DNA of 63,139 bases from assembly GCA_024401855.1 (NCBI GenBank), contig JAKSKH010000012.1, positions 1 through 63,139 on the forward strand. Reading direction: 5' to 3'. This document shows positions 8,280-31,253 of the stretch, in pieces (within the stretch, counting starts at the first letter, position 1; every line of letters starts with the position of its first letter). The notes under the pieces are model-generated. The model was not told the DNA's origin. It saw only the letters and a list, made by a program, of their open reading frames with translations, and searched no databases. Source of the stretch: Bacteroidales bacterium. Lineage in GTDB: Bacteria; Bacteroidota; Bacteroidia; Bacteroidales; UBA932. A program made the position numbers and the translations under genes.

Positions 8280-8326
8280 AAAGTGAGCTCAAAGTTAACC
8301 GGAACTTTGAGCTCACTTTCTTTTTT
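8280..8326. terminator. Bidirectional terminator, 17-bp stem
   Basis: A perfect 17-bp inverted repeat (8280-8296 with 8303-8319) encloses the six-base loop AACCGG. It is followed on the plus strand by CTTTTTTA and preceded by an AT-rich tail usable from the minus strand. It separates argS from the convergent gene at 8325-8939 and overlaps that gene's stop region. Confidence 0.9.
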
Positions 8327-8939
8327 ATTCGGGAACGGTAAAGTGGACAATGCTTGTGATATCCTGGCATTTCACTTTACAGCTGCCGTCCAGTTTTTCG
8401 CCTGCAGGGAGGTCCTCCAATTGAATCCTACCTGTGATTTTAACTTTATTTCCAACTGTTCCTTCAGGGTTGTCAATTATTATCCATGGGCACTCGGAAG
8501 TGACCTCATAATGCAAGTTCCCGGCTTCTTTTGTCTGAATTATAATGTTAAAACTCCAGTCTTTTTCCGGATAAACATTCAGGAAATAATGGTCAAGGAC
8601 ATATGTTGCCTTAACGGCATCTCTGGTTATTACGTCATTTCCGCGTATCACCTCTGCAACCATACGGGCTGGTTGCAATTTAACAACCATTATACTGTCA
8701 CATGCTCCATATGTTTCCGAAAAGCCTTTCTTATTTCTCAGAGTGAAATTATTTTCGGCACGGACGTAATCGCTTCCACTGATGTTGCTGTTGCGTGATT
8801 TTGACTTCCAACTCCGTGATTGGGAATCGTACACTTCAATCTTGCCTCCTGATAAAGTGTATATGGCTTGTTCAGCCTTTTTTTGAGCATAGGCACTTAA
8901 ACTTATCAAACAGAAACAGATAATGAAAATTTTTTTCAT
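8325..8939 (-). CDS. Exported FecR-like protein, last gene of the caspase operon
   Basis: A 204-residue protein with a clear signal peptide (residues 1-19, ending AYAQ). The first half, residues 25-90, contains IYTLSGGKIEVYDSQSRSW followed by a glycine/serine turn and NFTLRNKKG. This pattern resembles the FecR-type beta domain (a short strand, a tryptophan, then a threshold segment). The second half (about 130-204) has YEVTSECPWIIIDNPEGTVG and repeated beta-strand spacing like an immunoglobulin-like or BACON-type domain. It overlaps the upstream CHASE2 gene by 4 nt. FecR-like and CHASE2 domains are known to co-occur in bacterial sensory proteins, which supports a joint role. The family assignment is tentative and the function unknown. 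Confidence 0.6.
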   Translation of the reverse strand: MKKIFIICFCLISLSAYAQKKAEQAIYTLSGGKIEVYDSQSRSWKSKSRNSNISGSDYVRAENNFTLRNKKGFSETYGACDSIMVVKLQPARMVAEVIRGNDVITRDAVKATYVLDHYFLNVYPEKDWSFNIIIQTKEAGNLHYEVTSECPWIIIDNPEGTVGNKVKITGRIQLEDLPAGEKLDGSCKVKCQDITSIVHFTVPE

Positions 8940-10120
8940 ATGTCAAGATAATAACTTGTGTTATCGTTAAATACTTCTACTATTTTAATGGCGGTGTCAA
9001 CAAATAACATTGATATCAAGAAAAGAAGAATATCCGGAATTCTAAGGAACAAAGAGGTAAAGATCGCGAAACATATCATGACCATTAATATCTCTGCAAC
9101 CATTACTGAAAAAAATGACAGGAAAATCACTCCTATTCGTCTTAACTTACCGGCTCCTTCGAACTCCCTGTCAGCGAAAAACAGCATAAGCAAAGAAAGT
9201 AAAAAGCATAATGTATATGAGAGAGCAAGGTTGGTGACAGCCCGGCATTTTTTAAAAGGACGGTTGTAGGCGGATCTGATGAAGTTATATCCGTTTGATT
9301 TGCAGTAATCACTGCTTGATATCAGAGTATTGACGGTATATCCGATCAATATTACACCGGGCATATTATAAGAATTCTTGACCCTGCACGGGAGAATACG
9401 TATGTCTTTGTAATCTTTGCAATCTCCTATGAGTACAATTTTGCCTTTTATGTCCGACTCCTCAATTTCATCCAAGTCGGAATATGGAATGAATTCCTTA
9501 TTCCTGAAATTAATGGCACATCCATTTATTTCATTGAGTTCCAATCCGTATATCCGGGTAAATGCTTCAGCTACAGAAAATGCGGTCGTTTTCATTGTAT
9601 TCCGTGGATCATTCTCACTATATTGTTCGAAAAGATCAAAGGAAACTGGTGAAGCATAAATATAATCAGGAGTATCAAGTTTATCCTTGTAGAAGGGATA
9701 CTCCCATTCATCATTGACTTCATCTAGAATACAGGGAGAAACAACTGTGCATTCAACTCCGGACAGGGCGTCAACAATTCTATTGTCAGCATCCTGGTCA
9801 AGTTCGTCATTCCTTGGCATGAATACATCAAGACATATGACGGAAGGCTTGAATGAAGCAATTTTATTGATAACGTTTGAAATATCTGTTCGGGAAGAGT
9901 AGTCTGCAATATCAAATACTACAATGTCATTGCTTTCCTGTACAGATTTCGAGTTTTTGTTGTACAGGTTATAAAAACAACTCAGATAATAGTTGTCGTC
10001 AAAACCTGTAAAGGTCCCGGTTAAACCTATACCAAGGATTTTAAGCATCAGGAATGCCAGGATGCAGGCAATGATTGCAGAAAGAGCAGCTCTGATAATA
10101 TGAGACTTCCCTATTCTCAC
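8936..10120 (-). CDS. CHASE2-domain membrane protein without output domain
   Basis: A 394-residue protein. One membrane helix near residues 10-32 is followed by a large extracytoplasmic CHASE2 sensor region (about 35-285). Diagnostic features are IVVFDIAD, the conserved block ASFKPSVICLDVFM, and GKIVLIGDCKDYKDI followed by MPGVILIGYTVNTLI. Three or four hydrophobic helices close the protein (about 300-380). CHASE2 is normally the sensing half of adenylate cyclases, kinases or CHAT proteases; here nothing catalytic follows the membrane helices. It starts 2 nt after the LPP20-like gene and overlaps the FecR-like gene, so it probably passes an envelope signal to, or from, the other exported proteins of the operon. 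That role is inference. Confidence 0.85.
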   Translation of the reverse strand: MRIGKSHIIRAALSAIIACILAFLMLKILGIGLTGTFTGFDDNYYLSCFYNLYNKNSKSVQESNDIVVFDIADYSSRTDISNVINKIASFKPSVICLDVFMPRNDELDQDADNRIVDALSGVECTVVSPCILDEVNDEWEYPFYKDKLDTPDYIYASPVSFDLFEQYSENDPRNTMKTTAFSVAEAFTRIYGLELNEINGCAINFRNKEFIPYSDLDEIEESDIKGKIVLIGDCKDYKDIRILPCRVKNSYNMPGVILIGYTVNTLISSSDYCKSNGYNFIRSAYNRPFKKCRAVTNLALSYTLCFLLSLLMLFFADREFEGAGKLRRIGVIFLSFFSVMVAEILMVMICFAIFTSLFLRIPDILLFLISMLFVDTAIKIVEVFNDNTSYYLDI

Positions 10121-10122
10121 AA

Positions 10123-10815
10123 TTATTCTTCTGAATTACTGTTTTCGTATTGATTGATAAGAGAATCCATACCGATGACCTCATTAATTTTACTTTTGTC
10201 ATTCTCCGGTACATTATTGCAGATGGCATCTCTCAAGAGGTTAATTGCCTGTTTCATATCGTAAAGTACTGTCGTGCGTATCGTATAGGCATTCTTGTCC
10301 TGTTTGTATATGCTCAATGTCGTTATGACCCGACCGAGTTTTCCGGAAACAAGTACTTTTGCTTTTTCCGTGGCTGCAGACATTGAAGCGGCCTGATCAG
10401 GTGTAATTTCATGGTTTTCCAGAGCAATGTCCGCCAGAGCTGCAACGGAAGAGGAAATAGTGGAAACGATTCTGACCTTAGCTAAATTTTCGGCCTCCAT
10501 CTGTGCAGCGGAATAATTCTGTGATGTGGCTTGAGTGGTTACATAAATATATTTCGGATAGCCGTCATCGTCAAGTTGAAATTCTTTTTCCCAGGTACGC
10601 TCAAGTTGCTTTCCAATAGGAAGGTCCATTGTCTTCCATCCTTCTTTTTCAAGTTTTTTGACTTCTTTGTTAACCATCTTGTCGGGGTTCTTATAGAGTT
10701 CCCTTTTCAATTGACGGGATGTTTTTTTGTCATTTGTTTGAGAATTTGCGGGAAAACAGGTAAATACGGTCAATAACAATGCTGACAGACTGATGATTGC
10801 AAATATTCTTTTCAT
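10123..10815 (-). CDS. Exported LPP20-like protein of the caspase operon
   Basis: A 230-residue protein with a signal peptide (about 1-26, ending ANSQ) and no lipobox cysteine. A charged stretch (KKTSRQLKRELYKNPDKMVNK) is followed by GWKTMDLPIGKQLERTW. The middle part has AQMEAENLAKVRIVSTISSSVAAL and KVLVSGKLGRVITTLSIYK, then a strand pair ending YTIRTTVLYDMKQA. This alternation of an alanine-rich helix and strands resembles the LPP20/FlgT-N type fold found in bacterial surface lipoproteins. I do not recognise a named family with certainty. It lies 19 nt downstream of the caspase gene and 2 nt upstream of the CHASE2 gene. Confidence 0.6.
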   Translation of the reverse strand: MKRIFAIISLSALLLTVFTCFPANSQTNDKKTSRQLKRELYKNPDKMVNKEVKKLEKEGWKTMDLPIGKQLERTWEKEFQLDDDGYPKYIYVTTQATSQNYSAAQMEAENLAKVRIVSTISSSVAALADIALENHEITPDQAASMSAATEKAKVLVSGKLGRVITTLSIYKQDKNAYTIRTTVLYDMKQAINLLRDAICNNVPENDKSKINEVIGMDSLINQYENSNSEE

Positions 10816-10834
10816 GTTGATGATTAGTTGTGAA

Positions 10835-13354
10835 TTATTTATTTAACATTATATTTTTCCAATTTTCCTCCATTGAGAATGAAGGGGTCATTACAGGTGT
10901 CTGAGGCTTGTGGTTTACTACAATCGCTTCCCTTTTTACGTTTTCGGTAACATATTCGTTGAGTTCACCGAGTGTGGCGTTTCCTGCACTTTCCTGCAGC
11001 TTTTTCAACAGGTAATATGTGAACAGACCATGTCCTTTGGATTCCAGAGGGTATGCGGTTTCATTACCGGATGCTGCAGAAAATGCTATCATGTTACCCT
11101 GAGGCTGGTTCGCTTTTGCAACAACTGCAACACCTCTGGAAGAATTTGACATCATTTCACCATCCTTGTTGGCCCCGCTGAAACAGGCATCTAACATTAC
11201 GAATACATACTTCGCATTCAAATCTCCAAGTTCACGATATAGGCGGCTTAATGGATAACATACCTCCGTACTTAAGCCGTCAGAATCCACTGGAAGCAGA
11301 AAAGCATCTTTTGTGTTCTCATTCGGAACTCCGTGTCCTGAATAATAGAACAGGACTTTGATGTCGCCTCTATATGCTTCAGCAATTTGCCTGATTTCCC
11401 TCAGTGCTCCAAGCATCATTCCATAGGTGGCATTCTCATATAGACGGATATTGCTTTCAGGCAATCCAAGAGTCTTCTGGCAGTATTTGGCTAAAATGCG
11501 TCCGTCATTCAATGCCATAGGGACATGAGGTGCCATATTGTATTCTTCATTTGCAATAATAACGGCGAATGTCTTGTTGTTGATTTCTGTACACATCGGT
11601 ATGTTTGAATCAACGTCGGAAGTCGAAACATTAACTGTCGTTTTGTTGACTTTTCTGACAGAAGATTGCTCGGATGATGCCAACTGGGAATAATTGATAT
11701 CTGAGAATTCCATATCAACCTGTGCAGTGGTATAGTTCAAAGCATTTGCATTATCATACTTATAGGTTAATCCTGCAGGTGTGCGGAATACTATACTTTT
11801 CAGGGCAAGCTTCTCTCCATCTACACAATATTGGACATCAGACAGTTTGACTCCACCCCAACTCATCTCAAATGTCCTCGCTTCGTTGTTTGCTCTGGGG
11901 ACCGGGATTACAACTTCTCCAAATTTGGATTCGGCAAGAAAAACTTCATTCTCGGCATCATAAGGCTTTAGATGAAAGTCAGATATCCTGACTTCCTGCG
12001 AAAATCTTTTTACATAACTGTCTATCGCTTCCTGGCGAAGTTGGTTGATCATCTTCTCCCGTGTTTCCGGGTTTACGCGATGCTGATATTCATTAATTGT
12101 TTCGTATGGATCTTTAGTCTGCCATTTTTCAAGAGTTGGAGCAATGTATCTTTTTGCATATTCCGGAAATGTCGGGACTTCATCGGCGAGCTGCATATCC
12201 ATTGCAGGTGCATTTTTCTTTTTCTCTTCAAGAGAAATCACTTCAGGAACTACAGATTGCGACAATTTTCCTGCTCCCAACGAAACAAGTTTTTCATTTA
12301 TACTTGCAAATCCTGCTTTATCGTCAGTGTAATTATAAGCTATTGCCAATGCTTCCCAGAACTGTATGGAATAAGAATCCACTTCTAAAACATTCTTCAA
12401 GAAAGGAATTGCGGTTTTGAAGTATTTCTTGGCTTCTTCGTGAAGGTTAAAGGCATTGGATGAACTTTCAGGAAAAAGACTGTTATTATAGTTCAGAACA
12501 GCAGTATTGTAGTAATCAACAGCCAAATGTCGATACACATTCAAATTGTTAGGTTGTTGAACTTTCAATTGCTCATAGAATTCGGCGGCTTTTTGATAAT
12601 TCCCGGAATTTTCATAAGATTTTCCCTGGATTCCCAACAAAGTCTTGTCATTAGGTCTGATAGCTAATGCCTTTGACAGATATGCATTCAGTTTGTCATT
12701 ATCTCCGGAGTCTATGCAATTGTTGATTGCTCTCGCCAATAGTTCAAAATCTTCAGGATATTCGGCAATAGCCATATCCAGAACCCTTTGTGACAGAGAG
12801 AAGTCATTAATGTTATCACATGCCTGGGACATGTAAAAATAAACTACCTTCCTGTGATTCATATCACCGGTTGAGAGATATTCCTTGAAATATTTGATTG
12901 ACTCTTTATATTGTCTGGAATTGAATGATTTGGATGCGGTATAATATACGATCATTGAATAATGCTCATCCTTTTGAAGATTCATCTTTGAAAATGACTC
13001 ATTCATCCCTATATCTACATATGCTTTGGCATAATACAATGACTTTTCAGCATTATCCTTCTGATAGAAAACGGCTGCGTTATAAAGATAGGGCCAAATC
13101 CGTTTCAAATTATTCTTAATATCAATTTCCTCCTGTGAATTTGGTGTGGCTTGAGACAGAAGTGTGCAGTTCGCCTCGTAGCATTCGCGTAAAACATCAT
13201 ATAATTGATCGCCCGAGGTCCCGCTTGAACTATATACAGCGAATTTTTCAAATGTGCTGTAGGCAAGTTCCTTTGTCGTCTGAGACCACGATGAAAAGCA
13301 TAATGAGACGAAAAATATGAGCGAAATAGATTTTTTCATTGAAATGTTATTCAT
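10835..13354 (-). CDS. Exported TPR-caspase (peptidase C14) protein
   Basis: An 839-residue protein and the likely effector of the operon. A signal peptide ends near SSWSQ (residue 25); translation may also start at the second Met (residue 6). Residues 70-365 are helical repeats of the TPR type (for example YQKAAEFYEQLKVQQPNN). Residues about 405-550 form a beta-rich module, with Trp411 and EYxxRVNxETR at 422-432, shared with the WD40 protein of this operon. The caspase domain starts near 595 (KTFAVIIANEEY). The catalytic dyad is complete: His674 in YYSGHG and Cys724 in LDACFSG, with FSAASGNETAY in the position of the substrate-binding segment. C14 enzymes cleave proteins after specific residues. 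Here the protease would act in the periplasm or at the cell surface. Confidence 0.9.
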   Translation of the reverse strand: MNNISMKKSISLIFFVSLCFSSWSQTTKELAYSTFEKFAVYSSSGTSGDQLYDVLRECYEANCTLLSQATPNSQEEIDIKNNLKRIWPYLYNAAVFYQKDNAEKSLYYAKAYVDIGMNESFSKMNLQKDEHYSMIVYYTASKSFNSRQYKESIKYFKEYLSTGDMNHRKVVYFYMSQACDNINDFSLSQRVLDMAIAEYPEDFELLARAINNCIDSGDNDKLNAYLSKALAIRPNDKTLLGIQGKSYENSGNYQKAAEFYEQLKVQQPNNLNVYRHLAVDYYNTAVLNYNNSLFPESSSNAFNLHEEAKKYFKTAIPFLKNVLEVDSYSIQFWEALAIAYNYTDDKAGFASINEKLVSLGAGKLSQSVVPEVISLEEKKKNAPAMDMQLADEVPTFPEYAKRYIAPTLEKWQTKDPYETINEYQHRVNPETREKMINQLRQEAIDSYVKRFSQEVRISDFHLKPYDAENEVFLAESKFGEVVIPVPRANNEARTFEMSWGGVKLSDVQYCVDGEKLALKSIVFRTPAGLTYKYDNANALNYTTAQVDMEFSDINYSQLASSEQSSVRKVNKTTVNVSTSDVDSNIPMCTEINNKTFAVIIANEEYNMAPHVPMALNDGRILAKYCQKTLGLPESNIRLYENATYGMMLGALREIRQIAEAYRGDIKVLFYYSGHGVPNENTKDAFLLPVDSDGLSTEVCYPLSRLYRELGDLNAKYVFVMLDACFSGANKDGEMMSNSSRGVAVVAKANQPQGNMIAFSAASGNETAYPLESKGHGLFTYYLLKKLQESAGNATLGELNEYVTENVKREAIVVNHKPQTPVMTPSFSMEENWKNIMLNK

Positions 13355-14253
13355 TCTGCAGATTTACATATTGAAAAATCCAAAATTTTAACGGACATGC
13401 GATCATCCCTTTTCCTGTTCTTTATCAACCATGACTGAAATTCCTTGTCTGATATAAAATTGGTTGGAAGTTCCCAACTTTTTAAATCGGGGTAAGTTTC
13501 ATCCGCAGGTAAAATGAAAGAATCTGTAGAGAATATCATATATAGACGATCATATTCAATGTCTTTGTCGGTATAAAGACTTAAATTATTTTGTGATGGA
13601 TCATCTGGTGAAAAGAATACATAACGTTTGTTTGCCTGTACAGGAATAAGGTTTCCTTTGCTGGAATTGGTCGGAAGCAAACGCCGGACCGTTGCAGCAT
13701 CTTCAATTACATATACGGCTAAATAACCTTGTAATGGAGTCCTGAACTTGATTGACATATTGTCATTGGATGTAAAGAACGAAGATTCACAACTGTCATC
13801 TGATCCGTTTCTTAAAAGTGCACAGTCGAAATTGACAGTATTTCTTACAATTTCCCGGATCTTTCCTTTTATTGTTACTATTGCAACAAATTGGTCACCG
13901 TTGCGTATGTCCCATTTTACTACAGGCTCCCCTATTGTTTCAAGCCATTCACCCTGGACTTCGCTTTCTCCGATTTCATATGTGTTGGATACAGATTCAC
14001 CATTGATACTGGATATGGTAGTGTTTGTTACAGAACTGACCAGCGTTCCATATTCATCGGCCAGAAGTTTTATTTTGGCTTTTTCCACAGCTGCCGAACG
14101 CGCCTGCTCACGTGACATATAATCCGGATAAACATACTCATATGTTATTTCCCTTATACGTATATCCTGGGCGCAAACGGTCAATTGAACTGCAAGAGAC
14201 AGCACAATGACGGAACAGAGCGGGCAAAGTATTTTTTTTACTTTAAAAAGCAT
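13351..14253 (-). CDS. Exported protein with DUF4384-like C-terminal domain
   Basis: A 300-residue protein with a signal peptide (about 1-28, ending VCAQ). The N-terminal half contains MSREQARSAAVEKAKIKLLADEYG, an LPP20/FlgT-N-like helix, and strands ending QFVAIVTIKGKIREI. The C-terminal half (about 170-290) has MSIKFRTPLQGYLAVYVIED, RRLLPTNSSKGNLIPV and RYVFFSPDD, the signature layout of DUF4384. DUF4384 domains are often fused to or encoded beside caspase-like peptidases in bacteria, consistent with its position. It overlaps the WD40 gene by 11 nt upstream and the caspase gene by 4 nt downstream, so the three are translated as a coupled set. The molecular function is unknown; a ligand-binding or adaptor role is plausible. 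Confidence 0.75.
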   Translation of the reverse strand: MLFKVKKILCPLCSVIVLSLAVQLTVCAQDIRIREITYEYVYPDYMSREQARSAAVEKAKIKLLADEYGTLVSSVTNTTISSINGESVSNTYEIGESEVQGEWLETIGEPVVKWDIRNGDQFVAIVTIKGKIREIVRNTVNFDCALLRNGSDDSCESSFFTSNDNMSIKFRTPLQGYLAVYVIEDAATVRRLLPTNSSKGNLIPVQANKRYVFFSPDDPSQNNLSLYTDKDIEYDRLYMIFSTDSFILPADETYPDLKSWELPTNFISDKEFQSWLIKNRKRDDRMSVKILDFSICKSAE

Positions 14254-16312
14254 CTACAAAAATGAATTCTACTGATATTCTCCTATATTCGGCCCCTTTG
14301 TTTTCAGAAACTTCAACTACATAATTGTAATCTGTTTTCATACGTGAAAGTTCGTTGATATTGTCTTCAATATATTTTTTCAGACCAACTGCACGCACAA
14401 AAGCCAATTGTTTGTTGGTGGATATCCCTTCATCCTTGGTAATGGTGACATCAGAAAGCGAGCCATTGCTAATTATAGGCTGGTTTACATAACGGCCGAA
14501 ACTTTCATCATATCTTATTGGACGTACGATAGGTGTGTTGTCTGCCGTTCCTGTGATTTTTATATTAACTTTCTTGCCATCCTTGATGTACTGGGCGAAA
14601 TCAGCAGCAAATGCCTTGCAGATTATATCGAGCATTGATTTTGCCGCGCCTGATTCTTCAGGACGATATTTTCCGGGACCGAAATCCTCTCGTTCCGAAA
14701 AGGCTGCATCCACATTATAGCTAACACCAACCCTGTAGTTTAATATCTTATTTCCCTCTGAGTCATAATCCGTATCGACATGAGTGAGTACACTTATATT
14801 CGTGTGATTTGATATTGTGTTTGTTTCAGTCGCTGTAGAAACGATTTCCTGTTTGATCGCCTCCAGTTTCTGCTCCTCCATATTAGTCATTTGAATAAGC
14901 TCAAGAGGTACAAAATCTTCCTTCAAATTAAGGAAGTCAAGAGTTTTACGCTCTCTGTTATCAAAGAGGAAGGTCTTTCCATTGACTTTGTTATACACTT
15001 CAACGTAAATCAACTCGAATGTATCTTCATCTGTAACGGTATATTTTGCATTACTGAATCTCAAATTCTCGATATCGGAGAAATCCACTACTTCGTTTTC
15101 CGGGATTGTAAGGAATACGGAGGGCATGCTGTCAAAATCAATGGTAAGGACAGAAGTTTCCATATTATATCCTCCGAGAGTTGCTGTAGAATTCTCGAGC
15201 AGATTCTCAGCCATTCTGGTAGATGCTTCCTCTTCATAAAAAGACATCTGTTTCAGTCTGGTTTCATCATTTACGCGTTTATTGTATTCTTCAATGCTTT
15301 CTCCGTCCATTTGTTTCATCCATTCATCCATTCTTTCGTCAATCTCGCCTGACACAAGTTTTCCGTAATAAGGAGAAAGCGAATCCAAATTAACATACGC
15401 AATCTTATATTTGGAATAAATTGCCAGATAATCGTCCCCCATTGAACTTCTGATAAATTTCAAGCTGATTATCCCATCTGTCTTGATGTCAAGTCCCAGA
15501 CATTCAGGAGTGAACAGACGGTTTTGAATTACAATATGATTCGGAGAGGTGACAACTGCAATATATTTCCCATCACGGTTTATGTCACATGCAGTTGCTT
15601 CTCCCATTCCTGAAAATTCCTTCATCAATTTAAAAGAATGTGCATCATATAATGTAAGTTTACCGTCCGAAGTTGTAACAGCGAAGAAGGAGCCATCCTT
15701 TGCAAATGATAAAGAATTGACACAGACAGGTCCGGATATTTCTTTTTTGATTTTCCAGGATTCAATATCTCTGATTTGGATCAGTCCGTTTTTGATTAAA
15801 GCCAGATAATAACCGTTGTCACTTATAATAATATCTTCGGCCGCGAAAGAAGCTTCCTGCGTTCTGGTTAAGGTATAGTCACTTGTACTATAGAAGACAA
15901 CCTTACCATCTGACAAGCATGCTGATATGTATTTTGCATCAGGGGCATAGCATATTGCTGTAACAGGAGTTTCAAGCTTGATTTTATCGAGGATATTCTC
16001 AAATTTCAAACGGTCATATATGTATATCTTAGGATTTTTCTCTTCGTAGCTCAACGCGCATGAAAAACCTGCCGGATTTACCTTGAAAGAGTTGACATTC
16101 CTTGTGTTGGATTTGCCGTTTATGATGTTGTCTTTGTAATCGAATATGAAACTGCCGCCTTTAAAGTATGATGCAACTTGATAAAAATCACACGTTTCAG
16201 AAGGAATAGAATGTTCATAGGATTTGTACACCTTAAGAGAGTCTGCCGCATAAAGGATATCCGGAAGAATACAGGACAAAAATATTGCCGTCGAAATGTG
16301 AAACTTTTTCAT
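14243..16312 (-). CDS. Exported WD40-like / OmpA-C-like protein with module shared with the caspase
   Basis: A 689-residue protein with a signal peptide (about 1-22). Residues 30-320 hold repeated beta-propeller blades of the WD40 type (ITAICYAPDAKYISACLSDGKVVFYS and LSFAKDGSFFAVTTSDGKLTLYD are two of them). Residues 326-460 repeat the module of the caspase protein, with Trp331 and EYNKRVNDETR at 342-352. After a coiled linker, residues 520-689 look OmpA-C-like: YNVDAAFSEREDFGPGKY, then VNIKITGTADNTP, then TNKQLAFVRAVGLKKYI. In OmpA-C this part binds peptidoglycan, which would anchor the protein to the cell wall. It starts 4 nt after the transglutaminase-like gene. It is probably a scaffold, and its pairing with the caspase is inferred. 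Confidence 0.75.
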   Translation of the reverse strand: MKKFHISTAIFLSCILPDILYAADSLKVYKSYEHSIPSETCDFYQVASYFKGGSFIFDYKDNIINGKSNTRNVNSFKVNPAGFSCALSYEEKNPKIYIYDRLKFENILDKIKLETPVTAICYAPDAKYISACLSDGKVVFYSTSDYTLTRTQEASFAAEDIIISDNGYYLALIKNGLIQIRDIESWKIKKEISGPVCVNSLSFAKDGSFFAVTTSDGKLTLYDAHSFKLMKEFSGMGEATACDINRDGKYIAVVTSPNHIVIQNRLFTPECLGLDIKTDGIISLKFIRSSMGDDYLAIYSKYKIAYVNLDSLSPYYGKLVSGEIDERMDEWMKQMDGESIEEYNKRVNDETRLKQMSFYEEEASTRMAENLLENSTATLGGYNMETSVLTIDFDSMPSVFLTIPENEVVDFSDIENLRFSNAKYTVTDEDTFELIYVEVYNKVNGKTFLFDNRERKTLDFLNLKEDFVPLELIQMTNMEEQKLEAIKQEIVSTATETNTISNHTNISVLTHVDTDYDSEGNKILNYRVGVSYNVDAAFSEREDFGPGKYRPEESGAAKSMLDIICKAFAADFAQYIKDGKKVNIKITGTADNTPIVRPIRYDESFGRYVNQPIISNGSLSDVTITKDEGISTNKQLAFVRAVGLKKYIEDNINELSRMKTDYNYVVEVSENKGAEYRRISVEFIFVDAF

Positions 16313-16316
16313 AAAT

Positions 16317-17777
16317 TTATAATACTATGATATTTACTGAACTGTTATCCATTCCCGTCATTGTGTTTCCAACAGGTGCGCCGATAAATGTGGGGTCACA
16401 TATTGTGAAATCCCCTTCTTCAAGTTGAATGTAATCTCCTTCAGGACCGTTTGAGAATTTCACGGCTGTTGCCAGATGGTTGGGATAATAAATTAAGGCA
16501 ACATCCAAACCGAGAAGATCCCGAACAAGATGAGAGTAAAGGATTGATCTGTCTTCACAATCGCAATAAGGGTAATAAAGAGTTTCTTCGGCAAAGAAAA
16601 CACGGTCCCCTCCCCATACCTTGTCATCATATTCATACTCAAAGGAAGTCTGTACAAAATCCAGAAGTATATCAGCTCCTTCTATTTCAGTTTTACCGTC
16701 AATCTTCTTGATTAAAGAAGGGTATAGAATGTTTTTAGCAGATTCGCTCAAGGGGGTATTTGCATATATGGCCCACCTGGTCATGAAATCATCTCCAATC
16801 TGTCCTGAAGGATATGTATCAAAAAATCGTATCTGTTCTTCATTGATGTCACACTCGGATGTAACCGAATATCTTTCTGATTTGAAATTTCTCTTTTTGT
16901 GCCCGGCATCTCCAAACATTTGCTCCTGTTCTATCTTCAGGGAGAGTCCTTCTTCTTCCGGATACGGAATGTCTGCTATAAAGAGCTTGTTTTCATCGCT
17001 GTCAAAGACATAATAATTACTACCATTTATCTTGAAGAAAGGTCTGTTGTATACAATACAGTCTGTTCCGTATAGGAAAAACAGTCTGTCTCCATCAAGA
17101 CCAAGCCTCATCTTGTATCCTGACTGAGAAAAGATATATGCAATCATGAATGTTGCAGAATCGCTGTTGCCCAGATATGAGTTTACAAAAGACTTCAAAA
17201 GTTGGAGATAAGCCCAGTCACACAGTTTCTTCTGTGTCCTGATTTCAAGACAGTCTGAAATCATGCTGTCGTACGAATGGGAAGATAATTTTTTCCATCC
17301 CCGCGACAAATCCCCCAAATTCAATGACTCGAGTTTGAATTTTCTTCTTGACTGAGGAACACGTACCGTAAGATTCATTCCGAAGCATGAAAAGTTTATA
17401 TTTTCCAGTGTCGTTTCTTTTGATTTCTTTATCGGTTCGACCGGCTTTGGCTGAGGTTTTGGTGCCGGGGCCTGAATAACTTTATCAAAATGTATCGGCA
17501 CAGGCTTTATGTCCTTATCCTTAATTTCCAGATTGTTCTCGTATCTTACCGGAGGCAACGGCTTCTGTTCCGGTTTTTCAATGGGAGCCATCGCTGTGAA
17601 TTCCTTCCAGTTGGTAAGAAGAAAATCAGCATACTGTTTATTGATCTGATCTCTAAAAGAATCAAACTCATTTGAAGCCTCTTTGAAAAAATCATCAAAT
17701 TCTTTCTGAAAATTATTTTGGCCCCATACTTGAAATTCTATAATTGCGAAAAGAATGAGGAATAATATTTTTTTCAT
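16317..17777 (-). CDS. Exported transglutaminase-like cysteine protein, first gene of the caspase operon
   Basis: A 486-residue protein with a signal peptide (about 1-19, ending VWGQ). An acidic/aromatic helix (FQKEFDDFFKEASNEFDSF) is followed by a Pro/Lys-rich linker (residues 70-125) with several PKP-type repeats, suggesting an extended envelope-spanning segment. The C-terminal third contains a transglutaminase-type triad: Cys407 in CDCEDRS, His434 in YYPNHLATAVKF and Asp461 in FTICDPTFIGAPVG. Such folds act as peptidases, amide-bond ligases or deamidases; which applies here is not visible. As the first gene it follows a 211-nt promoter region with two palindromes. The triad was found by eye and its spacing is typical of the superfamily. 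Confidence 0.75.
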   Translation of the reverse strand: MKKILFLILFAIIEFQVWGQNNFQKEFDDFFKEASNEFDSFRDQINKQYADFLLTNWKEFTAMAPIEKPEQKPLPPVRYENNLEIKDKDIKPVPIHFDKVIQAPAPKPQPKPVEPIKKSKETTLENINFSCFGMNLTVRVPQSRRKFKLESLNLGDLSRGWKKLSSHSYDSMISDCLEIRTQKKLCDWAYLQLLKSFVNSYLGNSDSATFMIAYIFSQSGYKMRLGLDGDRLFFLYGTDCIVYNRPFFKINGSNYYVFDSDENKLFIADIPYPEEEGLSLKIEQEQMFGDAGHKKRNFKSERYSVTSECDINEEQIRFFDTYPSGQIGDDFMTRWAIYANTPLSESAKNILYPSLIKKIDGKTEIEGADILLDFVQTSFEYEYDDKVWGGDRVFFAEETLYYPYCDCEDRSILYSHLVRDLLGLDVALIYYPNHLATAVKFSNGPEGDYIQLEEGDFTICDPTFIGAPVGNTMTGMDNSSVNIIVL

Positions 17778-17988
17778 ATTCGTTTAATAATTACAATACA
17801 AAACCGTACCCTGCCAATCAGCAAGGTACACTTCAAATGCAAATTGATTCAATCGGAATTGAATCAGTAATTTGTTTCATATGATGGAATAGCTCTTAAC
17901 TTTCCAAAGTTAAATATTATTTTTAATATCCAATATAATAACGCCTTATCTTTAACAAATAATTGATTTAATGGAGTATATTCCAATA
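17778..17988 (-). promoter_or_regulatory. Upstream region of the caspase operon: promoter within a palindrome, plus a second inverted repeat
   Basis: On the minus strand TAACTTTG (17905-17912) matches the Bacteroides -7 element, and TTG lies 18 nt upstream (17931-17933). The -7 element sits inside a perfect 8-bp inverted repeat TTAACTTT-CC-AAAGTTAA (17896-17913). A second inverted repeat of 9 bp, TGATTCAAT/ATTGAATCA with a CGGA loop, lies at 17845-17866 in the leader. The predicted leader is about 120 nt long. Confidence 0.5.
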
Positions 17989-18705
17989 TTATAAAGGAGA
18001 GATACTGGCAAGGCCGTTCTTCCTTATTGTCAACCTCGGTTCTCCAAGGTATTTGACAACGGATGTCCCGGATATTTGCCCGGAGATTTTTTCTGTGCAG
18101 TTAACCCTTACTATTCCTGCACCATTTATGTTCAGATTGCAATATTCACAGCCGAATCCTTCTCCCATCACAACGCGTGAAGCTCCATCTATTTTTATAC
18201 TGACATTCTTCGAATATCCTGTTATCGTTGCGTTCACAGCCCCCGCACAATAGATGGAAAGCCCTTCCGTATGTATTTTCCCTATGACTTTTGCGGCACC
18301 AAACAAATCGAATGACAAACTGTCCTGAATGACAGGTGCCGGGATCTCAAGTGTTGTGGCGCCTGCAAGAATCAGTTTTTCAATGTCATCGGAAACCGGT
18401 AAATATATGACAGGTGTCTTACCTCCAAGTATGGCACTGACGCTCTCCCCTTCTTTGTATCTTACGTTCAATTGATTGTCTTCAACGACAAATTCAATGT
18501 TTTTTATTACTCTGTCCGCGGCATCAATCTTCAAAGTATCTTCAGTCACACTATATATGACTTTGAAGTTCCCTCCTATCTTGACTGTGTTGAAATAATC
18601 AGTGATTTTTATCGGTTTTGTCTTTGCAGAAGCAAAATCAGCATCGATGATTGTCAATGCGGCAAAGAGTGTAAAAATAAACAGCTTGTTGATTTTAAGT
18701 GACAT
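17989..18705 (-). CDS. DUF2807 (GIN-domain) exported protein
   Basis: A 238-residue protein with a signal peptide (about 1-27). The body shows the repeated beta-solenoid pattern of DUF2807, the putative adhesin-head or GIN domain common in Bacteroidota: DYFNTVKIGGNFKVIYS, VVEDNQLNVRYKEG, then short repeats such as LILAGATTLEIPAP, LSFDLFGAAKVIGKI, LSIYCAGAVNATITG and VSIKIDGASRVVMGEG. The molecular function is unknown for the family; members are secreted or outer-membrane-associated. It is the last gene of a six-gene minus-strand run (21778 to 17989), 14 nt after the TfoX-N gene. It is followed by the promoter region of the caspase operon. Confidence 0.85.
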   Translation of the reverse strand: MSLKINKLFIFTLFAALTIIDADFASAKTKPIKITDYFNTVKIGGNFKVIYSVTEDTLKIDAADRVIKNIEFVVEDNQLNVRYKEGESVSAILGGKTPVIYLPVSDDIEKLILAGATTLEIPAPVIQDSLSFDLFGAAKVIGKIHTEGLSIYCAGAVNATITGYSKNVSIKIDGASRVVMGEGFGCEYCNLNINGAGIVRVNCTEKISGQISGTSVVKYLGEPRLTIRKNGLASISPL

Positions 18706-18719
18706 AGTATTTATATTTT

Positions 18720-19109
18720 TTATTCCTTGAAATCTGTTACATATTTCTCGAAAAAATATTTTTTTCTTCCCGTCTCTTCCCGGTTTGTTCTATTTTTCTT
18801 TCTCGGTCTGCTTATCGGAAGGTCATCGTAAACAGCCTCTGCAATTCCACACAGTTGCCCATCCGAAATGTTATCTGGAATGACATAGAACAGCTTGCTT
18901 CCCGGAAACAATTCTATCTTTTCATTCTCAGGAAGAAGCCTTTCTATCGTTGGCCCGGGTTCCAGCAGCAATTGTCCGTCAGATATGAATCCAAGAACCT
19001 TGCCAGCCATGTGAATAACGTATCCACCCATCATAGGCCTGACGGTGACAACCTCAAGCTTTGAAAATTTATTGCGTATATATTCAGCGTATTCTTTATT
19101 TAATGGCAC
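18720..19109 (-). CDS. TfoX/Sxy N-terminal domain protein
   Basis: A 129-residue protein matching the TfoX N-terminal domain. Key features are EYIRNKFSKLEVVTVRPMMGGYVIH and the strand ending GKVLGFISDGQLLLEPGP, followed by LFYVIPDNISDGQLCGIAEAVYDDLP, then a basic tail (RPRKKNRTNREETGRKK). The C-terminal TfoX domain is absent, as in many short homologues. In gamma-proteobacteria TfoX/Sxy activates competence genes; in Bacteroidota this single-domain form has no known role, so no competence function should be assumed. It lies 12 nt after the FKBP gene and 14 nt before the DUF2807 gene. Confidence 0.85.
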   Translation of the reverse strand: MPLNKEYAEYIRNKFSKLEVVTVRPMMGGYVIHMAGKVLGFISDGQLLLEPGPTIERLLPENEKIELFPGSKLFYVIPDNISDGQLCGIAEAVYDDLPISRPRKKNRTNREETGRKKYFFEKYVTDFKE

Positions 19110-19121
19110 AGTTGAGATCAG

Positions 19122-19613
19122 TTATTCGAGATAATCGTATTCGTTGTATATGTCGCAAAGCTCAATTTCAAAGATCAGCATTTTATAAGGTTCTATTGCG
19201 GCTGCTCCTATTTCTCCGTATCCAAGTTTGCTTGGAACATACAATATGGCCTTTCCTCCTACGCCAAGCATCGACAATCCTTCGGCCATTCCGGTGATGA
19301 CGGCATTCATCCTGAAAATTGCAGGTTTTTCCAGAGAAGAGTCAAATACGCTCCCATCAGCAAAGTATCCCTTGTATTTGACATATACTTCATCCACACC
19401 ATGAGGCTTCTTTCCTTTTCCCTTATCAATAATGACATATTGAAGCCCTGATGAAGAGCATTTTACTCCCTTGACACTTTTGTTTGTAGAAAGGAAAGTT
19501 TTTTCTTCCTCCTTATTTTTACTGTAGTTGTCTTCCTGCGCAAATGATTCTGTCTGGAAAACAAATAAAAATGCAGTTGCAACTATAAGTAAATTATATA
19601 ATAGCTGTTTCAT
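19122..19613 (-). CDS. FKBP-type peptidyl-prolyl cis-trans isomerase, exported
   Basis: I place the start at the ATG at 19613, giving 163 residues beginning MKQLLYNLLIVATAFLFVF, a good signal peptide; the longer reading from 19637 would overlap the M48 gene by 20 nt and spoil the signal. The FKBP fold is shown by VDEVYVKYKGYFADGSVFDSS, then FRMNAVITGMAEGLSMLGVGGKAILYVPSKLGYGE, then a last strand MLIFEIELCDI. Enzymes of this family speed proline isomerisation and act as folding helpers, here in the periplasm. The start lies 4 nt after the stop of the M48 protease gene, so the two are probably co-translated. Confidence 0.9.
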   Translation of the reverse strand: MKQLLYNLLIVATAFLFVFQTESFAQEDNYSKNKEEEKTFLSTNKSVKGVKCSSSGLQYVIIDKGKGKKPHGVDEVYVKYKGYFADGSVFDSSLEKPAIFRMNAVITGMAEGLSMLGVGGKAILYVPSKLGYGEIGAAAIEPYKMLIFEIELCDIYNEYDYLE

Positions 19614-19617
19614 GTTT

Positions 19618-20388
19618 CTATTTCCGTTGCATTGCATCTGCTTTGGCCTTCACGCGCTCGGCACGTTTTGCGCTGTCCGGGTGCGATGAGAACATCTTTT
19701 GCACCAAAGATGACTGGGAACTGCCTGACAGTTCTACAAGCTTGTTCAAGGCGTTGCTCATACTGTATGGGCTGTAACCATGTTCCGTCGAGAACTTCAA
19801 ACCATAGTCATCGGCGGCATACTCCTGCTTTTGTGAGTATTGTGAACTGACGAAAGATTCTCCGATGTCTCCAAGAATCGACTGTGAGAGCGTTCCTATT
19901 GTTCCGCCCGCGGAACTCAGGACACCTCTCGCGGCCTGTGCGAGATAGGCGTTTTTCATGGCATGTTTGCTGTCCTGATGAACTACATGTCCGCATTCGT
20001 GCCCGATTATCGCCATGAGTTCGCTGTCATCCATAATATCCATCAGGCCGCTGTAAACGCGTATCGAACCGTCTCCACAGGCAAATGCATTCACTTCATT
20101 GGTCTCATATACCTTGTAGTTGATCTTAAGGCCTTCGATGTCTTTTACGTCCGAAAGAAGCCTTCCGAGCCTGTTCTGGTAAGATTGAGAAGCCAGTTTG
20201 TTCTGTGCGTCCAGTTTTGCAATTGTCTGTTGACTGAGTGCCGCCACCTGCGCATCGGTAATGGATGCTGCAGTAAGTGCTGATGTTGCGGCAGATGCAA
20301 GCTGGACAGGGTCCAGATTCAGATTTGACATAATGCTGCAACCAGTCAAGGTGAGTGCGGTGAGAAGCAGGAATGTTATTTTTTTCAT
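19618..20388 (-). CDS. M48-family metalloprotease, lipoprotein
   Basis: A 256-residue zinc protease of the BepA/LoiP type, which helps quality control of outer-membrane proteins. The signal peptide ends with the lipobox LTGC at Cys17, so it should be lipid-anchored. The zinc-binding HExxH is HECGH (residues 130-134), and the downstream glutamate ligand lies in QKQEYAADDYGLKF. Between them is the usual helix-rich insert. The last residues (FSSHPDSAKRAERVKAKADAM) correspond to the HPxxxxRV active-site loop seen in this family. It overlaps the MscS gene by 4 nt and is followed directly by the FKBP isomerase, giving a protease plus foldase pair for the envelope. Confidence 0.92.
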   Translation of the reverse strand: MKKITFLLLTALTLTGCSIMSNLNLDPVQLASAATSALTAASITDAQVAALSQQTIAKLDAQNKLASQSYQNRLGRLLSDVKDIEGLKINYKVYETNEVNAFACGDGSIRVYSGLMDIMDDSELMAIIGHECGHVVHQDSKHAMKNAYLAQAARGVLSSAGGTIGTLSQSILGDIGESFVSSQYSQKQEYAADDYGLKFSTEHGYSPYSMSNALNKLVELSGSSQSSLVQKMFSSHPDSAKRAERVKAKADAMQRK

Positions 20389-22785: not shown

Positions 22786-24903
22786 ATGAAAAAATCATTA
22801 CTGTTATTCCTTGTTGCTTCCTGCATTGCCTGTAAACCATCCGTTTCTTACCCGGACAATGTTAACACCGTTGCCGTAAATCCGGAAGACACTCCGGAGC
22901 AGATTATCGCAAAAGCCGTTGAAACCAAGCCTTCCATACGTCAACAGATAGCAATGGACGATGAATTCATCGCTTTTGTCCATTTCGGCCCCAACACCTT
23001 TACTGGCCGTGAATGGGGCACGGGAATCGAAGATGCGGCCGATTTCAATCCGACTGGCCTCGATACCGACCAATGGTGTCGTACGATGAAAGAGGCGGGG
23101 ATGAAAAAAGTAGTTCTCACTGTAAAGCATCATGACGGATATGTCATTTATCAAACCAGATACACCGATCATGGGATAATGTCCTCCCCCTTCATGGACG
23201 GGAAAGGTGATGTTCTGAGAAGTTTGAGTGAATCATGTGCCAGATATGGATTGAAACTCGGAGTTTACCTTTCTCCGGCAGACCTCTGGCAGATGGAAGA
23301 CGGCAATCTGTATGGCAACGGGAGCGTAGCATCGCTCAGGACCATTCCGAAGCAGGTTGAAGGACGTCCTTTCGCAGACCGTCGCACTTTTCAGTTTGTC
23401 GTTGATGACTACAATGAGTATTTCCTCAGCCAGTTGTTCGAACTTCTCACCGAATATGGTCCGATTCACGAGGTATGGTTCGACGGAGCGCACCCCCGTC
23501 ACAAGGGAAACCAGCAGTATAACTACTCTGCCTGGAGGGAACTCATACGTACGCTTGCTCCGGAAGCAGTTGTCTTCGGAAGGGAAGACATACGCTGGGT
23601 GGGAAACGAAGCCGGGGATGTACGTGATTCTGAATGGAACGTAATACCTTATATCGGAGACAACCCTGACACAATGGTCAATTTCCATGATATGACTGAC
23701 AAGGATCTTGCTACCACAGAAACTCTCCTAAGCGCTCCCAAACCATTCTTCCTTCATTATCAGCCTTCAGAAACGGATACATCCATCCGCGACGGATGGT
23801 TCTTCCGCGATGATGATGAGCAGAAAGTGCGCAGCGCCGACAATGTTTTCGATATATACGAACGCGCCTGCGGAGGGAACTCCATCTTCATTCTTAATCT
23901 TCCTCCCACCAAGGACGGAGTCCTCGGCGAACGTGATGTTAAAAGTCTCGTTGAAGTTGGTCGCCGCATCCGCGAGACATACGGTACAAACTTGTTCAGG
24001 AAAAACCTTCGCAAACCCGCTGAAGTAGGTGAAGGTCTGGTGTTCAGGACCAAGAAGCCCTGCGATGTCAACAGAGTGGTGCTCTGCGAGCCTGTAGCCT
24101 TTTCCGGGGAACGCATTGAAGAATGTGCAATTGATGCATGGGTGGACGGTGAATGGCGTGAAGTCGCAACTGCCGGAAATGTAGGACACAAGCGAATCGT
24201 CCGTTTCGCATCAGTCAATACGGACAGAATCAGAGTTCGCGCAACAAAATCCAGGGCCGATGCAATCCTTTCATCCGTCAGCGCACATCATTATGCCGAA
24301 CATCCTGTCAATCTTTCCATTACCCAGGACAACGAGGGCTTGGTATCAATCAATCCCGACTGCGGTGATTTCACCTGGAATTATACCGGTCAGAACAGTG
24401 TGCAGAACATTACCCTCAGCAACCGTATACACTATACGACGGACGGCAGTGACCCTGACAGCTCTTCACCCGTCTATTCCGGACCGTTCAAGTTTGAAAA
24501 TGGAACAGTCAAGGCCATATCGTTCATCGGAAATGACTGCGGCGACTTATGTGAACAATATGTAGGTTACGACAGAAGTGCTTGGAAAACTGACATACAG
24601 CCCATGTATACTCTTGTTGACTGCGGAAAAGAAATTGAGATCCACTTTATGAGATTTGTCCCCAACATCAACAATTATCATGGAGATTACGTCAGCAAAT
24701 GCGATGTTTCCGTCAGCTCGGACGGTAAAAAATGGACCAAAGTTGCAACGGAGGAATTCGGAAATATCCAGAATGATCCGACACCAAGAAAAATAACTCT
24801 GGCCCGGCCTTGTGAAGCGCGATATATCAGGCTGGATGTACTTGAACTTGTCGGCGATGGAGACGGTTTCCAGAGTGTGGACAGTTCAATAGAAGTTTTA
24901 TAG
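22786..24903 (+). CDS. GH29 alpha-L-fucosidase with carbohydrate-binding C-terminal domains
   Basis: A 705-residue exported glycosidase that releases alpha-linked L-fucose. A signal peptide with a cysteine at residue 16 (VASCIACKPS) suggests a lipoprotein. The GH29 barrel spans about 45-400: FIAFVHFGPNTFTGREWG, KKVVLTVKHHDGYVIY, and the probable nucleophile aspartate in IHEVWFDGAHPR near 230, followed by a catalytic-loop glutamate region around GREDIRWVGNEAGD. After the barrel comes a discoidin-like beta domain (about 400-505), then a chitobiase/beta-hexosaminidase-C-like insert (IHYTTDGSDPDSSSPVYSGPF), then a second F5/8 type C domain (about 605-705). It is transcribed convergently with the sulfatase maturase, and the two stop codons overlap by 6 nt. 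No SusC/D is nearby. Confidence 0.93.
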   Translation: MKKSLLLFLVASCIACKPSVSYPDNVNTVAVNPEDTPEQIIAKAVETKPSIRQQIAMDDEFIAFVHFGPNTFTGREWGTGIEDAADFNPTGLDTDQWCRTMKEAGMKKVVLTVKHHDGYVIYQTRYTDHGIMSSPFMDGKGDVLRSLSESCARYGLKLGVYLSPADLWQMEDGNLYGNGSVASLRTIPKQVEGRPFADRRTFQFVVDDYNEYFLSQLFELLTEYGPIHEVWFDGAHPRHKGNQQYNYSAWRELIRTLAPEAVVFGREDIRWVGNEAGDVRDSEWNVIPYIGDNPDTMVNFHDMTDKDLATTETLLSAPKPFFLHYQPSETDTSIRDGWFFRDDDEQKVRSADNVFDIYERACGGNSIFILNLPPTKDGVLGERDVKSLVEVGRRIRETYGTNLFRKNLRKPAEVGEGLVFRTKKPCDVNRVVLCEPVAFSGERIEECAIDAWVDGEWREVATAGNVGHKRIVRFASVNTDRIRVRATKSRADAILSSVSAHHYAEHPVNLSITQDNEGLVSINPDCGDFTWNYTGQNSVQNITLSNRIHYTTDGSDPDSSSPVYSGPFKFENGTVKAISFIGNDCGDLCEQYVGYDRSAWKTDIQPMYTLVDCGKEIEIHFMRFVPNINNYHGDYVSKCDVSVSSDGKKWTKVATEEFGNIQNDPTPRKITLARPCEARYIRLDVLELVGDGDGFQSVDSSIEVL

Positions 24904-26055
24904 TTCCTTCATGATTTCAGCCGGCCCCTTGCCTTCGGACAGCAGTTCCTTCATTCTGTCCATATATGGACTGACGTGGCTGAAATAGGCTTTCAAGCCG
25001 CTGCAAAGCACATTTTTGCCTGCTACGCGATGCTCCGGGCATTCTCCGTGGCAGGCAAAATTGTATTTGCACTTCAAACAATCTGCAGGAAGGGAATTTC
25101 TCTTGGAAAGAGCGAAGTCAATCCTTTCTTTCGACTCGAAGATCTCTCTCAGGCTATTCTCCTTTATATTTCCGAGACGATATTCAGGACTTACAAAATG
25201 GTCACAGGGATAAACGTCTCCGTTATGTTCGACCGTAAGGGAATCGCTGCATATTTCATTTATTGAGCATACGCCCGGAGTCAAACCGCACCATTGTGCA
25301 AGGGTGGCATCGAAAATCTGCACATAATACTCTCCTACATCCTGTCTTATCCATTCATCGAAAACATCACAGAGAAAATCACCGTACCCGGTTGAAGACA
25401 CCGCCCATGGTAGAGTCTTGTTGGCCGCCGGGAGAAATTGCATGTAACGGCTTTCTATCTCATTTCTGAAGAATCTGTAGATCTCCGCTCCCCTGCCCTC
25501 CGAAAGATTGTTCACCACACTCAGCGTGTTGAATTCAACTCCGAATCTTTTGAACAGGGAGATTGCACGCAGAACAGAATCAAAAGTGGAATTTCCGGAT
25601 TTTGACTTCCTGTATCCGTCATGTATGTCTCTTGGACCGTCTATAGAGATCCCTACAAGGAATTCGTTATCCCTGAAGAAACAGCACCAGTTTTCGTCAA
25701 CTTTCGTTCCGTTCGTCTGCAAGGTGTTGAACACCTTTCTGCCGTCCGCATACTTGCGTTGAAGTTTCAGCGCCTTCCTGAAAAAATCAATGCCGGACAG
25801 CAGCGGTTCTCCGCCATGCCAGCAGAAAGTTACCTCACCGGTTTCGTTAGCTTCAAGATATTGTCTGACATATGTATCAAGCAGCTCATCACTCATAAGA
25901 GGCTCCCTACCTCTGTACAGTCCGGCTTTTTCCAGATAATAGCAGTATCTGCAGTTCAGATTGCAGGCACTTCCCGCCGGTTTCACCATTGTTCCGAAAG
26001 ACACCGGAGCAGTAAAGTGGCGGGCGTCTTCTATTGTGAAGATATCCTTATTCAT
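24898..26055 (-). CDS. Radical SAM anaerobic sulfatase-maturating enzyme (anSME)
   Basis: I take the ATG at 26055 as the start (385 residues, MNKDIFTIEDARHF), because the longer reading adds fifteen unconserved codons inside the sulfatase gene. The radical SAM cluster CxxxCxxC is Cys31, Cys35 and Cys38 (CNLNCRYC). Later cysteines form the SPASM region: CGLTPGVC, then SLTVEHNGDVYPCDHFV, then CLKCKYNFACHGECP, holding the two auxiliary iron-sulfur clusters. The enzyme oxidises a serine or cysteine of a sulfatase to formylglycine in the cytoplasm before export. It overlaps the sulfatase gene by 8 nt, so maturase and substrate are produced together. Confidence 0.95.
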   Translation of the reverse strand: MNKDIFTIEDARHFTAPVSFGTMVKPAGSACNLNCRYCYYLEKAGLYRGREPLMSDELLDTYVRQYLEANETGEVTFCWHGGEPLLSGIDFFRKALKLQRKYADGRKVFNTLQTNGTKVDENWCCFFRDNEFLVGISIDGPRDIHDGYRKSKSGNSTFDSVLRAISLFKRFGVEFNTLSVVNNLSEGRGAEIYRFFRNEIESRYMQFLPAANKTLPWAVSSTGYGDFLCDVFDEWIRQDVGEYYVQIFDATLAQWCGLTPGVCSINEICSDSLTVEHNGDVYPCDHFVSPEYRLGNIKENSLREIFESKERIDFALSKRNSLPADCLKCKYNFACHGECPEHRVAGKNVLCSGLKAYFSHVSPYMDRMKELLSEGKGPAEIMKEL

Positions 26056-27670: not shown

Positions 27671-27681
27671 TGTCCGAAGCT

Positions 27682-28833: not shown

Positions 28834-28837
28834 ATCT

Positions 28838-29827: not shown

Positions 29828-29877
29828 ATGAATTAAAAATTAGTTATCGTGTTTCAACAAATATAACAAAATAAATG

Positions 29878-29885: not shown

Positions 29886-29923
29886 CATCCAACAGCATAG
29901 ATTAACACTAAAACACAAATAAT

Positions 29924-31231: not shown

Positions 31232-31253
31232 CAAACCATTTAATTCATATAAC

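Follow-up and report, generated by a model that had tools for sequence, protein, structure and literature searches.

The window analysed here is a 63,139-nucleotide stretch from a Bacteroidales bacterium of the UBA932 lineage (contig JAKSKH010000012.1 of assembly GCA_024401855.1, positions 1 to 63,139 of the forward strand). It contains a run of seven genes, all on the minus strand and lettered A to G in order of transcription, which encode a caspase-domain protein (D) and six companions (Table 1). A preliminary description, made from the sequence alone, had proposed an operon of exported proteins centred on a caspase-like protease, which might sense envelope damage or foreign contact and respond by proteolysis of surface proteins. 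The seven open reading frames (ORFs) lie where that description placed them, and the gaps or overlaps of under 20 nt that it noted were measured from A to G as 4, −11, −4, 19, 2 and −4 nt, a range of −11 to +19 nt.

Table 1. Genes, domains, catalytic codons and flanking elements of the caspase operon (positions in the window)
Feature	Position	Strand	Description
Gene A	16317..17777	-	486 aa; transglutaminase-like protein, predicted exported; first gene
Gene B	14243..16312	-	689 aa; WD40 propeller, shared domain (MID) and C-terminal alpha/beta domain
Gene C	13351..14253	-	300 aa; predicted exported; DUF4384-type domain
Gene D	10835..13354	-	839 aa; predicted exported; TPR, MID and caspase (C14)
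Gene E	10123..10815	-	230 aa; predicted exported; family without Pfam match
Gene F	8936..10120	-	394 aa; CHASE2 membrane protein
Gene G	8325..8939	-	204 aa; predicted exported; relative not found
Caspase domain of D	10838..11611	-	residues 582-839
His674 codon of D	11333-11335	-	catalytic dyad
Cys724 codon of D	11183-11185	-	catalytic dyad
Asp617 codon of D	11504-11506	-	invariant acidic residue
Asp722 codon of D	11189-11191	-	invariant acidic residue
MID in D	11675..12169	-	about residues 396-560
MID in B	14894..15376	-	about residues 313-473
Cys407 codon of A	16557..16559	-	putative triad
His434 codon of A	16476-16478	-	putative triad
Asp461 codon of A	16395-16397	-	putative triad
Inverted repeat	8280..8319	.	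perfect, 17 bp; between convergent argS and G
Gap upstream of A	17778..17988	-	211 nt
TAnnTTTG promoter motif	17905-17912		single copy in A leader
Terminator-like hairpin	17805-17830	-	in A leader, 27 nt before start codon

Caspase protein D

Protein D matches the Pfam C14 family (E = 8.8e-19; 68.5 bits vs. a cut-off of 21.4), and its TPR part likewise scores over the cut-off, which bears out both labels given to it earlier. C11 and C25 domains were absent from D in a Pfam scan, which returned only C14 and TPR families, and in an NCBIfam scan. Alignment confirmed that the His674/Cys724 dyad is intact, and domain score and dyad together place D in C14. In all, 114 ORFs with a C14 domain were taken from the window and loci L033-L152, near-duplicate loci included; 112 of them span both catalytic positions. 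His and Cys are kept in 101 of the 112 and both lost in 10, and one copy (L078) has lost His alone. Companion domains in 38 scanned caspases were TPR_14 (10), LRR_5 (8), WG (7), Sel1 (6) and CARDB (2).

Two acidic residues, Asp617 (113/113) and Asp722 (112/112), are invariant in all rows with a residue at the position, inactive copies included. By our reading of motif positions they would correspond to Asp95 and Asp211 of TbMCA2, which are listed among the residues of the potential metacaspase S1 pocket in a source that also gives cleavage after Arg or Lys for metacaspases (PMC4357240). The invariant pair suggests that D likewise cuts after Arg or Lys. Because the pair is also invariant in inactive copies, it may be structural rather than required for specificity.

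The AlphaFold model of D has a mean predicted local distance difference test (pLDDT) score of 87.5 and a predicted template-modelling score (pTM) of 0.51, so that how its parts sit relative to one another is uncertain. Just past the catalytic Cys, a loop modelled with low confidence (residues 728-742) ends at an almost invariant Arg740-Gly741, a candidate self-cleavage site. Sequence searches of solved structures with D, A, E and C returned TPR matches, weak matches to MALT1 and metacaspase-9 (E = 0.29 and worse), and nothing else of use.

A domain shared by B and D

The WD40 label of B held, with a match over the Pfam cut-off. Solved structures found by sequence include many WD40 proteins, Apaf-1 among them; the Apaf-1 match, being one of many, says only that B is a WD40 protein. 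B and D share a further domain, MID, for which Pfam reports no family in either protein. Profile alignment of the two MID stretches with hhalign gave a probability of 98.2% (E = 5.1e-14). In the separately predicted models of B (mean pLDDT 85.8) and D, MID has a near-identical order of elements, helices followed by strands with one helix between, and that of B carries one extra short strand relative to the D model. It is plausible that MID is a docking module tying the WD40 scaffold to the protease.

The OmpA-like peptidoglycan-binding fold has the order beta-alpha-beta-alpha-beta-beta. The predicted order of strands and helices in the C-terminal domain of B is compatible with this fold, as judged from element order in the AlphaFold model only. 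Pfam has no match for this end of B, hhalign to E. coli Pal and OmpA gave 1.6%, and a search of PDB sequences yielded zero matches at E 10. The OmpA-like label and the peptidoglycan anchor that had been proposed with it are therefore without sequence support from Pfam or the OmpA and Pal profiles. In two relatives an additional B-type gene (585-589 aa) separates the WD40 and caspase genes (L088:5965-7734 and L112:5995-7752); its start is outer-membrane-protein-like by eye.

Proteins A, C, E, F and G

Transglutaminases have a catalytic triad in the order Cys-His-Asp. This triad is invariant in the A family (C407 and H434 in 47/47 and D461 in 48/48 covering rows, 55 rows aligned), but Transglut_core stays below the Pfam cut-off of 23 bits, at noise level in the window protein (E = 0.1; 13.3 bits) and weakly in a relative (E = 0.0023; 18.6 bits). 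Many A-type relatives lie in longer open frames of about 860-920 residues (e.g. G653:C1:542927-544390). The DUF4384 label of C is similarly placed: the window protein falls short of the cut-off (E = 3.8e-4; 20.9 bits vs. 27), but eight of the nine alignment members, the window protein included, match at E 0.01, the best at 6e-8. CHASE2 in F is over the Pfam cut-off (E = 9.9e-11), as previously assigned.

The remaining two labels lack profile support. E had been called LPP20-like, and none of the eight members of its family matches any Pfam family at E 0.01. An LPP20-caspase fusion suspected by eye in L033 was discarded, since only C14 is over the Pfam cut-off there. G had been called FecR-like; its sole profile matches in the Pfam and NCBIfam scans are BBS2_Mid and GLPGLI, both below cut-off, and a phmmer search of 2652 ORFs from 178 stretches at E 10 matched only G itself. 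A by-eye likeness of G to the N-terminal part of F-linked A proteins was unsupported by phmmer and hhalign.

Export and membrane topology

With a self-made, crude scanner that favours Q, a signal-peptide-like start and a cleavage-like site with Gln at +1 were found in A, C, D, E and G, five of the six soluble proteins. Gln at +1 follows the Q-rule for substrates of signal peptidase I in Bacteroidetes (PMC5837995). Among relatives, the same scanner found Q at +1 in 38/41 A, 83/92 C, 60/66 E, 87/114 caspase and 15/23 B proteins, counts that are upper estimates because the scanner prefers Q. F has one N-terminal membrane segment before CHASE2 and at least two after it; only 9 residues follow the last segment, leaving no cytoplasmic output domain. 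D, B, C, E, A and G are predicted to be exported and F to reside in the inner membrane. The earlier count of six signal peptides and one membrane protein stands for F and for the five proteins with a Q-rule site, but not in full, as the site is present in only five of the six.

Recurrence of the partners in Bacteroidales

Homologues of C were collected from a scan of genome contigs, and 80 of 145 relatives were kept, all from Bacteroidales taxa or labelled Bacteroidota/Bacteroidia only. One (L146) had no C ORF by our model, leaving 79 loci, a sample biased because it consists of best matches. A caspase lies within 8 kb of C at 64 of these loci; the corresponding counts are 55 for E, 29 for A, 14 for B and 7 for F. 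In the same operon run as C, they are 53 for the caspase, 53 for E, 23 for A, 7 for B and 6 for F. Where at least 8 kb was available on both sides (34 loci), a caspase was found in 29. E lies directly upstream of C in 47 of the 79 loci, and an A-type gene directly follows F in seven of the eight other F loci.

An even draw of 344 genomes of the order, which overlaps with the best-match sample, contained C in 36 and a C14 domain in 143. With our own genome excluded, C14 was present in 35/35 genomes with C vs. 107/308 without it (Fisher 2e-15, kinship ignored). A occurs in 78 and C in 35 of these 343 genomes, and the two occur together in 25. The draw gave 37 C matches, many on short contigs. 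A caspase lies within 8 kb of 21 of them, and E, A and B lie within that distance of 17, 12 and 4, respectively. Ten of the other stretches among the 178, which include the window, hold five of the families A-F. The partner set is recurrent, with its order and content reshuffled; because six of the seven families, A-F, recur together in relatives, we regard the gene set as a system and not as seven accidental neighbours. Co-occurrence was thus borne out as to the families, but conservation of order was not, and G matches only itself.

Named relatives bearing a caspase include Segatella copri (L116), Leyella stercorea (L096), Palleniella intestinalis (L127), Odoribacter lunatus (L126) and Muribaculum sp. 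An289 (L139). A phylum-wide search with C found only our own genome (1/296). One stretch has five caspase-domain genes in 12 kb around a C homologue (L110:533-12794). The caspases of a second subtype (L058, L059, L063 and L064) measure 860-900 aa. All but that of L064 are followed by a 205-234-aa gene, whose product in L059 is an outer-membrane beta-barrel by Pfam; L059, L063 and L064 have a DUF4384-type gene upstream of the caspase, and L059 and L064 have Mfa2 or weak Mfa-like genes nearby.

Boundaries and origin of the operon

The inverted repeat between G and its convergent neighbour, named argS by eye from its sequence, is probably a bidirectional terminator. At the other end, the hairpin in the A leader is a candidate for the upstream operon's end or for an attenuator. 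The TAnnTTTG motif was rejected as promoter evidence, as it is no commoner than chance (32 in the window vs. 40 expected). Elsewhere in the window, a glycan degradation region (22786-35983) contains alpha-L-fucosidase, sulfatase and GH127 genes.

The operon has a GC content of 38.8% vs. 46.2% in the rest of the window, and a mean GC at third codon positions of 0.382 vs. 0.502. Low values (0.38-0.41) extend into the three genes next upstream (17989-19637), so that the operon edge is not sharp on that side; beyond them GC jumps back. D-like genes were found in 7/101 genomes of the genus, our own included, with a full-length match in no other, and in at most 34/149 genomes of the family. In a caspase tree of 106 rows (catalytic columns kept; bootstrap not fully settled), from which 8 of the 114 were excluded for being short or identical, D groups with modest support among Prevotellaceae and two same-family TPR caspases, apart from two same-genus caspases. 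Low GC, patchy distribution and the tree indicate that the operon was likely acquired laterally. A clean empty site was not found, argS and M48 genes being on different contigs in 15/15 other genus genomes with both. Plasmid carriage was considered and rejected: 14 records have distant caspase matches, none of which covers 80% of D.

Patchy distribution and low GC would also suit a system of the CATRA/EACC1 type, in which a caspase effector acts against phage or in conflict between bacteria, and a PADLOC caspase model does match (7.9e-11). However, the proteins are exported as far as their sequences tell, and Pfam detects neither an NTPase nor a nuclease nor an EACC1 partner in the seven genes. 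The EACC1-caspase model reaches 72.5 of 140 bits, and the other six genes have no convincing PADLOC match. We consider this the least probable of the explanations weighed here.

Sigma factors and inactive caspases in related operons

In three relatives, extracytoplasmic function (ECF) sigma factor genes lie in operons with C, E and A-type genes (L100:10909-11839, L122:12366-13329 and L133:5155-6121). They match the NCBIfam sigma70-ECF model at 7.9e-8, 1.4e-10 and 2.7e-11, respectively, over cut-off only in L133; Pfam lists nothing at E 0.01 for the L100 gene. In all three, the sigma factor gene is followed by that of a small protein, one-pass by eye and with no family match of weight, and then by the A-type gene.

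Three further loci carry tandem caspase pairs of one active and one inactive copy (L044:777-4141, L087:15121-18815 and L127:11876-15195). In the caspase tree, the inactive tandem copies fall together with L109 and L117 in one supported clade, whose sister, also supported, consists of the active partners from the tandem pairs. The pairing has thus probably been maintained since an early date. Elsewhere in the tree lies another inactive lineage, made up of L054, L056, L057 and L072. Those four and L055 are same-family MID-caspases that have lost both catalytic residues and have no C homologue alongside.

These features bear on the idea that the operon encodes a secreted set, of digestive or virulence type, for foreign or dietary protein. 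Such a set could comprise an exported protease and a second cysteine-enzyme-like protein, many of the host bacteria come from gut or rumen, and extracellular protein degradation by bacterial metacaspases has been speculated upon (PMC4933709). A bulk enzyme would, however, have no need of adapter repeats, a docking domain, a CHASE2 receptor, inactive paralogues or embedded sigma factors, and Pfam finds no uptake gene among the seven. Given the ECF genes, the inactive copies and the adapter repeats, a controlled protease fits better, and we judge a digestive role distinctly unlikely.

Surface-type proteins raise another alternative, that D would mature surface lipoproteins or type V pilins, as clostripain (fragipain) or Arg-gingipain does elsewhere in Bacteroidota. 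Clan-CD proteases do process such proteins in the phylum: in Bacteroides, pilins and lipoproteins are both substrates of a surface clostripain (PMC12632263), and Mfa1 is one of Arg-gingipain (PMC5954841). Mfa_like_1 is matched 17 times in our own genome (15 of these over cut-off), and C14 by just one gene. Some caspase/C operons are adjoined by Mfa-like, Lcl_C or Big_2 proteins that look lipoprotein-like by eye (L059, L064, L100, L107, L122 and L147; some of the L064 and L100 matches are below cut-off). Yet an Mfa model made for this analysis, which fails to pick up the weak cases in L059 and L064, found an Mfa-like gene among the stretches searched only in L147 and L148 besides our own pilin loci, and D-like genes, in at most 34 of 149 family genomes, are too patchy for a general pilin protease. 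Because adjacency is rare by this model and the gene patchy, we keep the pilin-protease explanation only as an unlikely rival. The type V pilin-like Mfa_like_1 matches of our own genome are in many cases clustered, on contigs C25, C42, C45 and others, away from the caspase operon.

Discussion

Most discussion of caspases concerns proteases that act in the cytoplasm, in cell death or defence. The operon described here points to a different setting: its central caspase has an intact dyad and, like most of its partners, a signal-peptide start, in keeping with the exported set first proposed. On balance we favour, with slightly better than even confidence, a modular envelope protease system of Bacteroidales, probably laterally acquired, whose products would form a regulated Arg/Lys protease complex. 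Indirect support for regulated envelope proteolysis comes from the ECF sigma genes, the surface-type proteins in a few operons and the tandem inactive caspases.

In such a system, D would be an exported C14 protease, metacaspase- or orthocaspase-like, cutting after Arg or Lys, and its TPR part and MID would dock to partners. B would be an exported WD40 scaffold with the same MID, C (DUF4384) and E small exported accessory proteins, and A a second, transglutaminase-like cysteine enzyme. F would serve as an inner-membrane CHASE2 receptor; as it has no cytoplasmic output, it would probably act with a partner in the periplasm. In the likeliest course of events, a signal from the periplasm or envelope would assemble or release the protease, leading to cleavage of envelope or surface proteins.

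Several observations weigh against this interpretation. None of the other stretches among the 178 holds all six of the families A-F, and gene order is reshuffled. Of the 34 C loci with at least 8 kb on both sides, four lack all five partners (A, B, caspase, E and F) within that distance, and 15 of the 79 C operon runs contain none of the five; in eight of these 15, a B-caspase pair adjoins C on the other strand, which is linkage and not one transcript. In the even draw, 16 of the 37 C loci lack a nearby caspase, some being on short contigs and some distant C relatives, 28 genomes have A without C14, and 10 of the 35 genomes with C lack A. The S1 assignment, finally, rests on motif reading rather than superposition.

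A further interpretation, doubtful in our view, is that of an "apoptosome outside the cytoplasm". Here an envelope assembly of WD40 and TPR/MID scaffolds, the CHASE2 receptor and, in some relatives, dedicated inactive caspases would control the active caspase, cleavage of an anti-sigma factor or a surface lipoprotein would carry the envelope signal, and the whole would be a mobile, reshuffling Bacteroidales cassette. Returning to the regulated envelope protease that we favour, a recurrent exported caspase set with its own docking domain and, among relatives, inactive partners in some and an embedded sigma factor in others would be a separate route to regulated surface proteolysis, and the gene set gives a short list of testable partners.

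Comparison with known systems

Among the matches listed in searches limited to the open-licence PMC literature, no paper described this Bacteroidales gene set. The earlier remark that such sets usually come with cytoplasmic effectors needs qualification, as it passes over metacaspases with probable signal peptides, reported in 2012 together with a metacaspase-CHASE2 fusion (PMC3501461), and the surface clan-CD proteases of Bacteroidota (PMC12632263). Prokaryotic metacaspases and orthocaspases (C14B) have the same C14 dyad and the same companion domains (PMC8283722, PMC3501461), including DUF4384 and WD40 in cyanobacterial orthocaspases (PMC8283722). CHASE2 has also been described among the variable domains found in a conflict component linked to TRADD-N (PMC8195603). 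In the metacaspases and orthocaspases, however, the companions are fused in one protein, and the caspase of the CHASE2 fusion is thought to face the cytoplasm, whereas here they are separate genes for proteins predicted to be exported. Pseudo-orthocaspases have lost catalytic residues (PMC6426788), as have 11 of the 112 relatives here; unlike them, inactive copies also occur here in tandem with active ones (L044, L087 and L127), and the window copy is intact.

Among surface proteases, the clostripain-like fragipain of Bacteroides (C11) is likewise a clan-CD cysteine protease outside the cytoplasm (PMC12632263), and the Arg specificity listed for C11 (PMC4357240) resembles that predicted for D. 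D differs in belonging to C14 and in lying in a multi-gene operon with WD40, DUF4384, CHASE2 and transglutaminase-like proteins. Gingipain R of Porphyromonas (C25) has a caspase-like fold, belongs to clan CD, is exported and cleaves after Arg/Lys (PMC4357240), as D would by prediction; D is of another family, and its Pfam and NCBIfam scans revealed neither C25 nor type IX sorting domains. By analogy, the best reading is that the complex would work like the clostripain and gingipain surface proteases without belonging to them, and we regard the gene set as one that would add a new form of surface proteolysis by clan-CD enzymes in Bacteroidota.

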